Below are positions 24,692-36,381 of a stretch of 45,830 nucleotides of DNA, piece after piece (positions within the stretch are counted from its first letter, which is position 1; each line of letters starts with the position of its first letter). The stretch spans positions 1 through 45,830 of the forward strand of contig CAMYLP010000001.1 in the NCBI GenBank assembly GCA_947259245.1, in the 5' to 3' direction. Made by a program: the position numbers and the translations under genes. Source of the stretch: an uncultured Patescibacteria group bacterium (GTDB lineage: Bacteria > Patescibacteriota > Minisyncoccia > Phycocordibacterales > UBA12088). A model generated the notes under the pieces. The model made no database searches and was not told the DNA's origin. It was given only the letters and a program-made list of their open reading frames with translations.

Positions 24692-26113
24692 CTATTCCGA
24701 AAACTCAATGCGTGGAAACATCGTTTCCGGCTTTTTATTCTCACAGACGGTGTGCTTCACACGCTTTGCTGTTTCCGGCAAGAATGGCGTGAGCATGCAG
24801 CCGATATGGAAGAGCTCTGTCGCAAGCTCTGCTATTATCTCCTTGCCCTTTTCCGGCTCGGACTTCACCACCTTGAACGGTGCCTCGTCGGTCATACGCT
24901 GGTCGGCCGCGCCGATGCGCGCCCATATAAGGTTCATTGCTGCGTTGAACTCATACGCTTCCATTGCCTGTTTGTACTCCTTGGGACAATCGACCTTCTT
25001 GGGTTTCTCTACGGGCGAGTCAAGGTGCGTCTCTGCAAGCTTCATCACGCGAGACACCAAGTTGCCCAGCCCGTTCACAAGGTTTGCGGTGTAACACTCA
25101 TGGAAGCGCTCCATCGTCATGTCTGAGTCCTCAAACGGGTGTATGTGTCGTAGCAGGAAGTAGCGCAGTGCGTCGGTACCATACACATCTACGACATCGA
25201 TGGGATTGATGACATTACCGATACTCTTGCTCATCTTTTGCCCACCGCTTGTGATGAAGCCGTGTATGAGTATTTGCTTGCTTGGCTCTATCCCAGCGCT
25301 CATGAGCATGGCTTGCCACATCGCACTCTGTTGGCGCAGGTTGTCCTTCCCTGCAAACTGAATGCTTGGCCACCACTCACTGTACTTTTCATCCGGCCAG
25401 CCCAATGTACTAAGGTAGTTGACGAGTGCGTCAAACCAAACGTACATCACATGTTCTTCATCACCAGGCACAGCGACACCCCACGGCATCTTTTTCTTGA
25501 GGCGAGAGATGCTGAAGTCCTGCAAACCGCGCTCCACGAAGTTGCGTATCTCAAGCTGCCTGTGGGCGGGCACAACAAAGTCAGGCCGTTCGTCGTAGAG
25601 CTTTAAAAGCTTTTCGGCATAGTTCGAGAATCGGAAGAAGTAATTCTCCTCCTCGATGAGCTCAAGCTCTTGTCCGGGGTGTATTGGACACTTCCCATCC
25701 TCAAGCTCAGAATCTGTTTTCTCAAGCTCACACCCCACGCAGTACTTCACTTGGTAGTGTTTCTTGTAAATGTCGCCGTTCTTGTCACAGCGCTTCCAGA
25801 ACTCTTGCGCTGCCTCGACATGGTGCGGCTCGGTCGTACGGATGAATGCATCATAGGAAAGGTCGAGACTCTCTTTCAAAAGACCAAAGTGTGCTGCGTA
25901 CTCATCTACATATGCCTGCGGGTCTCTTTCGGCCTCAAGCGCCTTTCTGTAGACCTTAACTCCATGCTCATCAGTGCCCGTGTTGAAGAATACGTCGTCT
26001 TTCATTAAGCGGTGGTACCTGGCAACGGCGTCTGCCTGCACTATTTCAAGCGCAAAGCCGACGTGGGGATCGGCGTTTACATATGGCAGCGTCGTTGTGA
26101 GTGATACCTTCAT
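24692..26113 (-). CDS. metG: Methionyl-tRNA synthetase (short form)
   Basis: TTTLPYVNADPHVGFALEIVQADAVARYHRLMKDDVFFNTGTDEHG; KMSKSIGNVINP. Confidence 0.98.
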   Translation of the reverse strand: MKVSLTTTLPYVNADPHVGFALEIVQADAVARYHRLMKDDVFFNTGTDEHGVKVYRKALEAERDPQAYVDEYAAHFGLLKESLDLSYDAFIRTTEPHHVEAAQEFWKRCDKNGDIYKKHYQVKYCVGCELEKTDSELEDGKCPIHPGQELELIEEENYFFRFSNYAEKLLKLYDERPDFVVPAHRQLEIRNFVERGLQDFSISRLKKKMPWGVAVPGDEEHVMYVWFDALVNYLSTLGWPDEKYSEWWPSIQFAGKDNLRQQSAMWQAMLMSAGIEPSKQILIHGFITSGGQKMSKSIGNVINPIDVVDVYGTDALRYFLLRHIHPFEDSDMTMERFHECYTANLVNGLGNLVSRVMKLAETHLDSPVEKPKKVDCPKEYKQAMEAYEFNAAMNLIWARIGAADQRMTDEAPFKVVKSEPEKGKEIIAELATELFHIGCMLTPFLPETAKRVKHTVCENKKPETMFPRIEFSE

Positions 26114-32776: not shown

Positions 32777-35700
32777 TTACATGCCCTGAAGCGAAAGCTC
32801 GAGCGTAGTGGTACCGAGCGTAAGCGTGCGCGTCTCCTTGCCCTTCTCATGCGCGATCTTCTTCACTCCTGCCACACGACGCAGGTCATCGTGTGCCAGA
32901 GCGACGAGCTGCTTACCCGTGTCATCACTATCTACCATGAGCGTCACAGTATCGTCTGGTTTGAGACCTGCATCCTTGCGCATAGCTTGTACCGAGCGCG
33001 TGAGCTCTCGCACATATCCTTCACGCACCAGTGTGTCGGTAAGCTCGGTATCTAGTGTGATTTCTTCAGGAAGTCCGCTACCAAAAACCACTTCCTTAAC
33101 ATTTACTTCATCAACGAGAAGCGCCAGGAGCTCTTCCTTGCCCTCTAGTGTGTCGGTGGTAAGTGTTACTTTTGCCAGCGGTTGGCGTACCTTGATGCCT
33201 TCACGCTGACGTGCCTCAAGTACCAGCGATGCTACGCGGCGTACCTCAGCCATGGCCTCTGTTAGAGATTTGTCGCTGTCACCCGTAGCTCGCGGCCAAC
33301 GTGCCAAGTGTACACTCTCCTTCTTTCCGCCAATACCTCGATACAGGCTCTCTGCGATGAAGGGCGTAATGGGTGCGATGAGCCGTGCGAGCGTCAACAG
33401 TACCTCACGCGTTGTGTGCAGCGCGGCTTGGGCGTCCTCTTCGGATTCTGACTTGAATCTGTCACGGGAACGTCGTACGTACCAGGTTGAAAAATCACTG
33501 ACAAACTCCCGGAGTGCACGGGCGCTTTTTATTGTGTCGTATGAATCCATGGATGTAGTAACATCCGAAACCACTTCTTCGAGTCGTGCCAGTATCCATG
33601 TGTCGAGGACGGTTCTCTTGATCTTTTCCTCCGGATCGTACCTGCTTTGGTGCAGTTCGTAGAACTTGTAGCTGTTCCAAAGCATGTTAAGAAACCTGTT
33701 ATGTGCTTCTCGTATCTCGTCATCGTTGAAAGCTAAGTCCTCACCTGCCATCACGACCGAGCCAAGGAGGTAGAAGCGAAGCGCGTCGGCGCCGTAGCGG
33801 TCGATGTTCTCAAGCGGGTCAGTGAAGTTGCCCTTTGACTTGCTCATTTTCGAACCATCAGATGCCAGTACGGTGCCCGTGGAGATACAATTTTTGTAAC
33901 TCGGTGCATCAAACAAGAGCACCCCGAGCGCATGCATGTAGTAAAACCACGTGCGTGTCTGTGCGATATACTCTGCAATGAAGTCGCCGGGGTAGCGTCG
34001 CTTCACGACATCCTTGTTTTCGTGCGGATAGTGCTCTGACGCGAACGGCATGGCACCTGACTCCACCCAACAGTCGACGACTTCGGGAACGCGAGTTAGC
34101 ACTTCACCGTCATCAGAAACCAGTGGTAGTTCGTCTATGTACGGACGATGCAGGTCCAATTCATACTCCCCATTGTGTGGAAGAGGAACAAACTCAAGCT
34201 CTTGCACTTGTCCGTTATCTACAAAGTCCTCATCCTCTCCACGTATGACGACGCACTGGTCAACGTCCGCTCCTGCAGCAACAGATTGCGCCAGCCAGAG
34301 TGTGTACTCGTGACCGACGATGAGTATTTTCTCATTTTGATACGTATCTTCATACTCATACAGCGCCTCGCCGATGCGGCGCTTCATGTCCACGAGCGTT
34401 TCAGCACCGGGCGCGCACTCCTTTTCAAAACGTTCACGCACACCCGGGCACACAGCATGCAGTTCCTTTACCTTTTTTGTGTGGAGCTCCGTGAGTTGCC
34501 ACTCCTGCAGCCGTGTATCAACGAGAATGTCATCTGTGGGTATCTCAAGTGCTTTGGCGATCAGGTCGGCTGTTTCGCGAGTCCGCATCAGGGGACTGGT
34601 GATGATACGTGTAATGCCTTCTTTTTTCAGTTTCTTCGCCAATTCCTCGACTTGTGTGCGTCCCTTTTTTGTCAGATGGTTCTTGTGTTCCGGTAAGGTG
34701 CTGATTATCTTTTTTACGTTGCTCTCCGCCTCACCGTGACGGGTCATGTAGTAGGTATTGCCGCTTTTTTTCGTACGAGCACGCAAGTCGTCGAGAGAAC
34801 CGATGATGTGCAGTGCGTCGGTCGCCGCATTTCGCCAAATGGGAAGAGGACTTGCCCAGTAGCGGTTACGGCTGATGGTCCAATCGGGTGCGGTCTCTAT
34901 AGTGTGCTTGAAGCGGCCGTGTTTGAGATGTTCGGGGTACCACGTAACTTCTTCATTACTCTCCAGTAGGTACTGCTTCACTGCTTGTATGTTGATGAAC
35001 CAAGATGTGAGGGCGTTGTAGATGAGTGCGGTACCGCAGCGGTAGCAGTGCGGGTAGCTATGTGTGTGCGGGTGTTTGGTGAGGATGAGGTCTCGCTGTT
35101 CTAGATCCTCCGTCACGTAGCGCCCACCCTTCTTGAAGTACATACCGCGTACAAGCTCTGGAGCATCGTCGTTGAAGTTGCCACTTTCGTTCAAAAGCGG
35201 TACGACGGGTAGCTCATACTCAAGGCCGAGGTTGTAGTCGTCCTCGCCGTACATCGGTGCGATGTGTACGACACCGGTGCCGTCTTCGGTTGTCACGAAA
35301 TCCGCTGTCACGACACTCCATGCGCGCTTGCTCTTCTGTCCTTCTGCCTTTGGCACCTCGTAGAGTGGCTCGTAGGTAAGGTCCGCAAGTTTCTCACCCT
35401 GCACCTCTTCGATCACGGTGTGCTTACCGCTGAGTATTTTCAGCCGTTCTTTTGCGAGCAACAGCTTCTCCTTGCCATGCTTAACGAGCACATAGGTAAC
35501 GTTTGGTCCCACTGCAAGCGCAACGTTGCCGGGGAGAGTCCACGGAGTGGTGGTCCATGCTAGGACATAGGTCGCATCATCCACTTTTGTCTTACCTATC
35601 TTTCCCTTCTCTGCGAGCTTGAAGCGTACGAAGACTGACTCGTCGGTGACATCTTTGTAACTGTTATCCATTGCGATCTCTGCTTTTGAAAGTGGTGTCT

Positions 35701-36262
35701 CGCAGTGCGGACAGTACATGAGTACCTTTCGGCCTTCGTAGAGCCGACCGTCGCTGTGTATCTTCTTGAGGGCCCACCACACACTTTCGATGTAGGTGTT
35801 ATCCATCGTTTTGTACGAATTGTCGAAGTCGACCCAGCGGCCGATGCGCTCAATGTAGTGCTTCCAGTCTGATACGTAGGTCAGAACTGAGTTCTTCGCT
35901 TCCTCATTGAAGCGTGCAACACCCAGCTCCTCAATGTCCTTCTTTGTCTTAAGATTGAGCTTCTTTTCGACAATGTTCTCTATGGGGAGGCCGTGGCAGT
36001 CCCAGCCCCAGCGACGCGGCACCGTATATCCTCGCATGGTTTTGTACCTGCCGATGGCGTCCTTGTACGAGGAAATGAGCAAGTGCCCCATATGTGGCAA
36101 GCCAGTAGCAAAAGGGGGTCCATCGTAGAACACGAACTCGCCCTCAGGTGCATCTTTCTCGACTGTCTTTTCGAAGATTGCTTCGTCGTTCCAAAAGGCG
36201 ATGACCTCTTCTTCACGAAGCGCTGCCTCACTTTTCTTCACCTCGTTCTGTTTGCCATTCAT
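32777..36262 (-). CDS. ileS: Isoleucyl-tRNA synthetase with inserted histidine-phosphatase domain
   Basis: GPPFATGLPHMGHLLIS, DGSKMSKSKGNFTDPLENIDRYGADALRFY; inserted YYMTRHGEAESN...ILIVGHEYTLW. Start chosen at MNGKQNEV (36262). Confidence 0.97.
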   Translation of the reverse strand: MNGKQNEVKKSEAALREEEVIAFWNDEAIFEKTVEKDAPEGEFVFYDGPPFATGLPHMGHLLISSYKDAIGRYKTMRGYTVPRRWGWDCHGLPIENIVEKKLNLKTKKDIEELGVARFNEEAKNSVLTYVSDWKHYIERIGRWVDFDNSYKTMDNTYIESVWWALKKIHSDGRLYEGRKVLMYCPHCETPLSKAEIAMDNSYKDVTDESVFVRFKLAEKGKIGKTKVDDATYVLAWTTTPWTLPGNVALAVGPNVTYVLVKHGKEKLLLAKERLKILSGKHTVIEEVQGEKLADLTYEPLYEVPKAEGQKSKRAWSVVTADFVTTEDGTGVVHIAPMYGEDDYNLGLEYELPVVPLLNESGNFNDDAPELVRGMYFKKGGRYVTEDLEQRDLILTKHPHTHSYPHCYRCGTALIYNALTSWFINIQAVKQYLLESNEEVTWYPEHLKHGRFKHTIETAPDWTISRNRYWASPLPIWRNAATDALHIIGSLDDLRARTKKSGNTYYMTRHGEAESNVKKIISTLPEHKNHLTKKGRTQVEELAKKLKKEGITRIITSPLMRTRETADLIAKALEIPTDDILVDTRLQEWQLTELHTKKVKELHAVCPGVRERFEKECAPGAETLVDMKRRIGEALYEYEDTYQNEKILIVGHEYTLWLAQSVAAGADVDQCVVIRGEDEDFVDNGQVQELEFVPLPHNGEYELDLHRPYIDELPLVSDDGEVLTRVPEVVDCWVESGAMPFASEHYPHENKDVVKRRYPGDFIAEYIAQTRTWFYYMHALGVLLFDAPSYKNCISTGTVLASDGSKMSKSKGNFTDPLENIDRYGADALRFYLLGSVVMAGEDLAFNDDEIREAHNRFLNMLWNSYKFYELHQSRYDPEEKIKRTVLDTWILARLEEVVSDVTTSMDSYDTIKSARALREFVSDFSTWYVRRSRDRFKSESEEDAQAALHTTREVLLTLARLIAPITPFIAESLYRGIGGKKESVHLARWPRATGDSDKSLTEAMAEVRRVASLVLEARQREGIKVRQPLAKVTLTTDTLEGKEELLALLVDEVNVKEVVFGSGLPEEITLDTELTDTLVREGYVRELTRSVQAMRKDAGLKPDDTVTLMVDSDDTGKQLVALAHDDLRRVAGVKKIAHEKGKETRTLTLGTTTLELSLQGM
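34160..34765 (-). other. Histidine-phosphatase/phosphoglycerate-mutase-like domain within IleRS
   Basis: RHGEAESN, SPLMRTRETADLIA, TRLQEW and VGHEYTLW motifs sit between SLDDLRART and DLHRPYIDE of IleRS. Confidence 0.93.
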
Positions 36263-36381
36263 ACGCTGCATCGTAGCACTTTTTGGCACAAAATCGAAGT
36301 AATATCCAACACGGTACTTTGCGTGTTATGGCTGAAACCAGTATCATACGGGCAGACAAACTCTGCTTACAGGAGGCAGTG

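Follow-up and report, generated by a model that had tools for sequence, protein, structure and literature searches.

A predicted histidine phosphatase domain with a conserved active site sits inside the isoleucyl-tRNA synthetase of an order of Patescibacteria

Few enzymes are as well conserved as the aminoacyl-tRNA synthetases. Some of these are already known to carry extra domains, including an exception family at NCBI in which isoleucyl-tRNA synthetase (IleRS) is combined with a GNAT domain. What might a complete phosphatase be doing inside the catalytic body of an IleRS? This question is raised by the ileS gene of an uncultured Patescibacteria group bacterium (GTDB lineage Patescibacteriota; Minisyncoccia; Phycocordibacterales; UBA12088), which lies in the stretch of DNA analysed here, positions 1 to 45,830 of contig CAMYLP010000001.1 in assembly GCA_947259245.1 (the window). 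Comparison of sequences and predicted structures showed a putative branch-1 histidine phosphatase, catalytically conserved, to occupy the IleRS CP3 loop across the order of this bacterium, and to occur elsewhere as a gene upstream of ileS or within valyl-tRNA synthetase (ValRS). In the open-access PubMed Central literature, a scope that leaves most subscription papers and bioRxiv preprints outside, our search brought up no account of an IleRS or a ValRS that contains a phosphatase. The gene is laid out as follows, with the roles of the RHG motif, second arginine, Glu/Asp acid and second histidine presumed from what is known of the superfamily.

32777..36289, minus strand: ileS, encoding IleRS with an internal histidine phosphatase (1170 aa plus stop; GTG start at 36289)
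34766..36289, minus strand: N-terminal part of IleRS, residues 1-508, with the first half of the Rossmann domain, the CP1 editing domain, CP2 and the start of CP3 (PF00133, TIGR00392, 1ILE residues 12-482)
34163..34765, minus strand: inserted histidine phosphatase domain, approximately residues 509-709 (PF00300; AlphaFold2 model; PDB matches with Z about 19-23)
32780..34162, minus strand: C-terminal part of IleRS, residues 710-1170, with the remainder of CP3, KMSKS, the anticodon-binding domain and the C-terminal domain (profiles, 1ILE alignment)
36083..36094, minus strand: HIGH-type motif HMGH, residues 66-69 (sequence)
34736..34738, minus strand: His518 of the RHG motif, nucleophile by homology (kept in 167 of 169 inserts, 2 gapped)
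34583..34585, minus strand: Arg569, second phosphate-binding arginine by homology (kept in 168 of 169 inserts, 1 gapped)
34502..34504, minus strand: Glu596, general acid by homology (of 169 inserts, 164 have Glu, 4 have Asp and 1 is gapped)
34310..34312, minus strand: His660, second active-site histidine by homology (kept in 168 of 169 inserts, 1 gapped)
33836..33850, minus strand: KMSKS motif, residues 814-818 (sequence)

By homology, the inserted domain is a member of branch 1 of the histidine phosphatase superfamily. It matches PF00300 (His_Phos_1) over residues 514-678 with an E value of 1.1e-28 (6.6e-29 for the segment alone), scoring 101.4 bits against a gathering score of 21.7, and its isolated AlphaFold2 model is of high confidence (mean pLDDT 96.3, pTM 0.92). 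The nearest solved structures are PspA, GpgP, PhoE, a riboflavin-pathway phosphatase and CobC, with Z values of 21-23. Profile, model and PDB matches thus bear out the first-pass annotation of this locus, which had recognized a complete histidine phosphatase domain within IleRS. PhoE/YhfR, PspA and their relatives are stand-alone enzymes; these branch-1 phosphatases share fold and catalytic residues with the insert (Z 21.8 for PhoE 1EBB, 23.0 for PspA 4IJ6) but are only about 24-26% identical to it, and the domain falls below the PspA equivalog cut-off (45.7 vs 350 bits) as well as below those of GpmB (67.4 vs 261), CobC (65.4 vs 162.9) and SixA (35.5 vs 74.5). PADLOC gave no match to an anti-phage defence system for either the insert or the whole protein, and no relative was found among viral contigs; unannotated phage records contained three weak matches at 26-34% identity. 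The window's own genome encodes two further histidine phosphatase genes in tandem (G000:C3:13658-14818), in which the residue at the acid position differs.

The best NCBIfam match of the isolated domain is dPGM_arch, and the window's genome possesses enolase with no match to PF01676 (iPGM-type); both would suit a form of metabolic moonlighting in which the insert supplies a missing phosphoglycerate mutase activity. The dPGM_arch score of 83 bits is, however, far under the cut-off of 225. Moreover, enolase is absent from 21 of 46 order genomes that we censused, and the IleRS-borne domain is present in genomes lacking it (e.g. G012, G014, G021-G023, G033, G034) as well as in genomes where enolase and PF01676 both occur (e.g. 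G011, G013, G041, G045). This presence with or without the two markers rules out a mutase substitute as the general function, and we regard the moonlighting explanation as extremely unlikely.

The synthetase around the insert appears complete. Its frame, 36289..32777 on the minus strand, is free of interruption over 1170 aa and exceeds the TIGR00392 (ileS) membership cut-off of 621.4 bits by 207 (828.8 bits). HIGH and KMSKS motifs, CP1 and the anticodon-binding domain were all found by sequence, Pfam and structure overlay, with tRNA-synt_1, Anticodon_1 and DUF5915 flanking His_Phos_1. The uninterrupted frame and intact motifs read in the first pass were therefore borne out, and of the span given there, 32777-36262, the frame and its end stood, whereas the start did not: 36262 is an in-frame ATG at residue 10 of a frame that opens with GTG at 36289. 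The whole-protein AlphaFold2 model (mean pLDDT 90.2, pTM 0.83) overlays Thermus IleRS (1ILE) over 797 residues of the synthetase part at 2.0 Å; the body is therefore left intact by the insert. Likewise, the alignment with 1ILE runs to residue 482 and picks up again at 488 after a break of some 200 residues, so that the insert takes the place of the short CP3 loop, 1ILE residues 482-488, in agreement with the replaced connector proposed earlier. Both 1ILE and the type 2 IleRS of Priestia megaterium (8C9D), whose body also overlays that of the window protein (929 residues, 3.3 Å), have a CP3 without phosphatase. NCBIfam NF040702, an isoleucine--tRNA ligase exception family with an N-acetyltransferase domain, is likewise an IleRS with an extra enzyme domain, but this domain is a GNAT rather than a phosphatase, and the window protein scores 321.1 against its cut-off of 1999. 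Among nine PF00133 matches in the window's genome (950 kb, 97% complete), ileS looks like the one IleRS, as the best candidate by sequence; the other long frames are located on contigs C17 and C11, which we read, without a family search, as ValRS and leucyl-tRNA synthetase (LeuRS), plus a 586-aa frame in the window at 25151-26101. The CP3 zinc cysteines of Thermus IleRS are gone from the window copy, around residues 485-495 and 722-730 by the 1ILE alignment.

Does the insert look like a working enzyme? Loss of the catalytic residues in relatives, raised in the first-pass annotation as a sign of a purely structural insertion, is not what we observed: essentially all of 169 distinct IleRS inserts keep them. 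The arginine of RHG (Arg517) is kept in 167 of the 169 and gapped in 2, the gapped rows being L190, in which the domain was found in two pieces, and L123, whose locus contains a run of N. In 33 of 33 aligned inserts the Arg-His pair, Arg, Glu and His are invariant, and the full catalytic set is also kept in 7 of 7 ValRS inserts. A degenerate domain is ruled out by the 169-insert set. Identity to the window's domain ranges from 27 to 62%, often only 27-45%, and retention of the catalytic residues over this range is what one would expect of a working active site, as far as sequence can tell. An insert that merely helps to hold the CP3 loop would fit with the first CP3 cysteine pair being absent more often from inserted than from uninserted IleRS (75/161 vs 11/59 by motif count), but not with near-perfect conservation of catalytic residues. 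We therefore consider a purely structural insertion very unlikely, and the same holds for an assembly artefact, given that the domain is found in many independent genomes.

How widespread, then, is the arrangement? Scans at the level of family, order, class and phylum covered whole genomes; class and phylum counts are among the matches listed, and no rates are drawn from them. A long frame with the domain is present in 8 of the 10 genomes of the family. In the order, this is true for 136 of 148 sampled genomes, judged from a frame length of >=595 aa rather than from IleRS identity in each genome; of the remainder, 4 lack a match and 8 have only short frames or unlisted weak matches. Recurrence in so many independent genomes, single-contig ones included, rules out the assembly chimera that the first-pass annotation had named as a concern. 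Together with the strength of the PF00300 match and the invariant residues of the 33 aligned inserts, it also puts the arrangement well outside what chance could produce. Fetched loci place the domain inside an IleRS frame in the window's genome, three genomes of its genus, four of its family and 106 of the wider order. Among 80 named loci, the insert is present in 47, including Kaiserbacteria, Adlerbacteria, Wolfebacteria, Jorgensenbacteria, Yanofskybacteria, Spechtbacteria, Terrybacteria, some Doudnabacteria and one Uhrbacteria, and absent from 33, including Magasanikbacteria, Komeilibacteria, Saccharibacteria and archaea. In the census of PF00300 matches in 46 order genomes, every frame above ~400 aa had the length of an IleRS, was truncated at a contig end, or was one of two ValRS (933 and 945 aa). 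One pair of genomes captures a change of state: G037 (uninserted) and G115 (inserted) belong to one genus and are sisters in the IleRS tree, so the gain or loss of the insert between them is, on sequence grounds, clean and recent. At some loci, two overlapping frames together make up IleRS, with the break close to or past the insert (L137, L067/L011) or in the CP1 region (L279); these may be frameshift errors or true splits. The two-frame IleRS of L123 carries the run of N, and we give its split no meaning.

Elsewhere, the phosphatase can be a gene of its own. Among the matches listed in the class scan, 12 genomes (G170, G196, G220, G231, G240, G271, G280, G282, G298, G339, G349 and G370) have a stand-alone insert-like frame of about 183-227 aa, and the IleRS seen in all 12 is without insert. 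In nine of them (L219-L222, L224, L225, L228, L276, L277), the phosphatase gene immediately precedes ileS on the same strand, and the named locus L124 shows the same pair. Of eight junctions read, four overlap by 4-7 nt and four are spaced by 1-31 nt. In G298, another ileS fragment (L226) has a second phosphatase copy 1.7 kb away.

We built a maximum-likelihood (ML) tree of 92 out of 195 histidine phosphatase stretches (fixed must-haves plus a random draw in which the window's row was not drawn) and an IleRS-core tree of 61 out of 217 cores, short or partial rows having been removed beforehand from both. In the domain tree, 11 stand-alone domains fall among the IleRS inserts (67-row group, 100/98), for which two changes are needed. 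The IleRS partners of the stand-alone genes occupy at least four places in the IleRS tree, with L222/L228 very deep. Because these partners are so scattered, it looks as though the phosphatase is retained when its synthetase partner is exchanged, in keeping with an ileS-linked enzyme that acts in trans. ValRS domains and most extra-copy domains branch outside the main IleRS insert group, which argues that histidine phosphatases were probably recruited into synthetases more than once.

Nine ValRS loci carry a histidine phosphatase between the matching motifs (L199, L200, L234 with two in tandem, L235, L236, L237, L280, L287 and L290), and all seven proteins scanned of the nine exceed the valS cut-off of TIGR00422 (743.6-899.2 vs 612.1). 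Two phosphatase domains reside in one IleRS at L229, L230 and L232, and a 1572-aa IleRS (L231:1667-6382, G604) has three at three sites, with one more in the ValRS of the same genome (L290). In four genomes (G020, G043, G423 and G604), IleRS and ValRS alike carry phosphatase domains. Other enzymes were seen in such loops, too. The IleRS of G423 (L233:1638-5990) has a GNAT following the HFPFG motif, and its histidine phosphatase precedes the anticodon-binding domain; a ValRS of G593 (L235:327-4157) combines three foreign enzyme domains, a HAD hydrolase, a serine hydrolase and a histidine phosphatase; and in the window's class, an IleRS of G177 (L281:693-4280) lacks the phosphatase but has, within its CP1 region (residues 225-343), a NUDIX domain (PF00293, E 7.5e-24).

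The charge of the domain bears on one possible job, in which it would strip phosphate either from the synthetase itself, for instance once a HipA-like kinase has attacked it, or from tRNA ends that are damaged or capped. Kinases do modify synthetases, and the position of the domain beside the catalytic core would suit such repair or regulation. So would the basic charge of stand-alone versions, which might favour a nucleic-acid partner: in eight pairs, their median excess over the IleRS core of the same pair is 5.4 net charges per 100 aa. However, inserted copies are not basic (median -0.6 vs own core, 161 pairs), the closest structures are small-molecule phosphatases, and repair of tRNA ends would serve all synthetases rather than those for Ile and Val alone. 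We thus think a repair or regulatory role quite unlikely. As an observation on the ileS-linked stand-alone phosphatases (L219-L228), most are strongly basic relative to inserted ones.

What we propose instead, tentatively and at rather less than even confidence, is that the insert may be an active phosphomonoesterase for small molecules that works in connection with the charging of Ile, and in some lineages Val, where it would clear a phosphorylated by-product or inhibitor. A phosphorylated ligand made or met by the synthetase would bind the phosphatase pocket; candidates are AMP, pyrophosphate, a phosphorylated or nucleotidyl by-product, or an inhibitor of the aminoacyl-nucleotide type. Following the superfamily mechanism, which we presume to apply by homology, His518 would take the phosphate to form a phospho-His intermediate, with Arg517, Arg569 and His660 holding the phosphate and Glu596 as the acid; the phosphate would then be released by water. 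We count it in favour of such clearing that the nearest solved structures are small-molecule phosphatases. A separate gene is one of the forms in which the phosphatase occurs, so its substrate probably diffuses and is not a fixed part of the same polypeptide. The first-pass annotation had suggested either a phosphorylated ligand near the synthetase active site or dephosphorylation of the enzyme itself; since related phosphatases occur as separate genes beside ileS, action within one molecule cannot account for everything. Restriction to IleRS and ValRS, repeated recruitment, multiple copies and the separate-gene form would fit a diffusible molecule of Ile/Val activation, and the presence of the phosphatase in both IleRS and ValRS of the same genome argues for local action. 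A link to Ile/Val charging is favoured over a purely structural role.

Several observations weigh against this clearing proposal. An approximately unbiased test did not reject IleRS inserts as one clade without the stand-alone genes (p 0.07), so that we read no direction of change from their nesting in the ML tree. Six order genomes have an intact uninserted IleRS (G030, G037, G061, G062, G080 and G145), and G037 has no PF00300 match whatsoever. In three of the 12 genomes with a stand-alone gene, ileS is located elsewhere (G220, G282 and G349). The unrelated GNAT, HAD, serine hydrolase and NUDIX enzymes in similar Ile/ValRS loops indicate that insertion need not mean a functional link. Finally, DPANN proteins at L272, L273 and L275 have a divergent histidine phosphatase, missing the first arginine of RHG, ahead of SRP54_N/SRP54 GTPase domains; from their sequences, we read the fusion partners as FtsY-like. 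Among the matches listed from 148 DPANN genomes (E down to ~2e-10), only one lies in a frame >800 aa, and of four frames >600 aa that were fetched, none matches IleRS, ValRS or LeuRS and the three scanned are those read as FtsY-like. L272 also carries a serine hydrolase domain.

The same loop enzymes and DPANN fusions are why a house-cleaning enzyme simply parked in IleRS stays a strong competitor: a general metabolite phosphatase could use an essential, well-expressed carrier with a tolerant loop in a reduced genome. The stand-alone genes, which must act in trans, would agree with this, as would the fact that the IleRS copy is the sole PF00300 match in several genomes (e.g. G012, G021-G024, G028, G033, G034 and G044). 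Yet in the 46-genome census only IleRS and ValRS serve as hosts in the order, stand-alone genes mostly adjoin ileS, and repeated recruitment with up to three copies per IleRS would be redundant for a general activity. Parking is therefore possible, if doubtful.

The clearing proposal has a broader version, which we consider speculative and fairly unlikely. Ile/ValRS of Patescibacteria might be platforms for exchangeable loop enzymes, histidine phosphatase above all and occasionally GNAT, NUDIX, HAD or serine hydrolase. On the spot, these would break down by-products or Trojan-horse inhibitors that are phosphorylated or of the aminoacyl-nucleotide type, a clearing function alongside aminoacylation and hydrolytic editing. 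Microcin C self-immunity relies on MccE2 (GNAT), MccF (carboxypeptidase) and MccH (phosphoramidase) to inactivate aminoacyl-nucleotide synthetase inhibitors (PMC9239234). This set of a GNAT, a hydrolase and a phosphoramidase resembles the mix of loop enzymes in Ile/ValRS, by analogy only: the three are separate immunity proteins against an inhibitor of aspartyl-tRNA synthetase, and the likeness is one of enzyme kind.

The extra catalytic domain is kept across most of a large order in a highly conserved synthetase, has probably been recruited repeatedly and is found as a neighbour of ileS, which implies an unrecognized reaction tied to the charging of Ile (and Val). If its substrate is a by-product or inhibitor, this would be a new layer of quality control or resistance in the translation of a huge group of uncultured symbionts.

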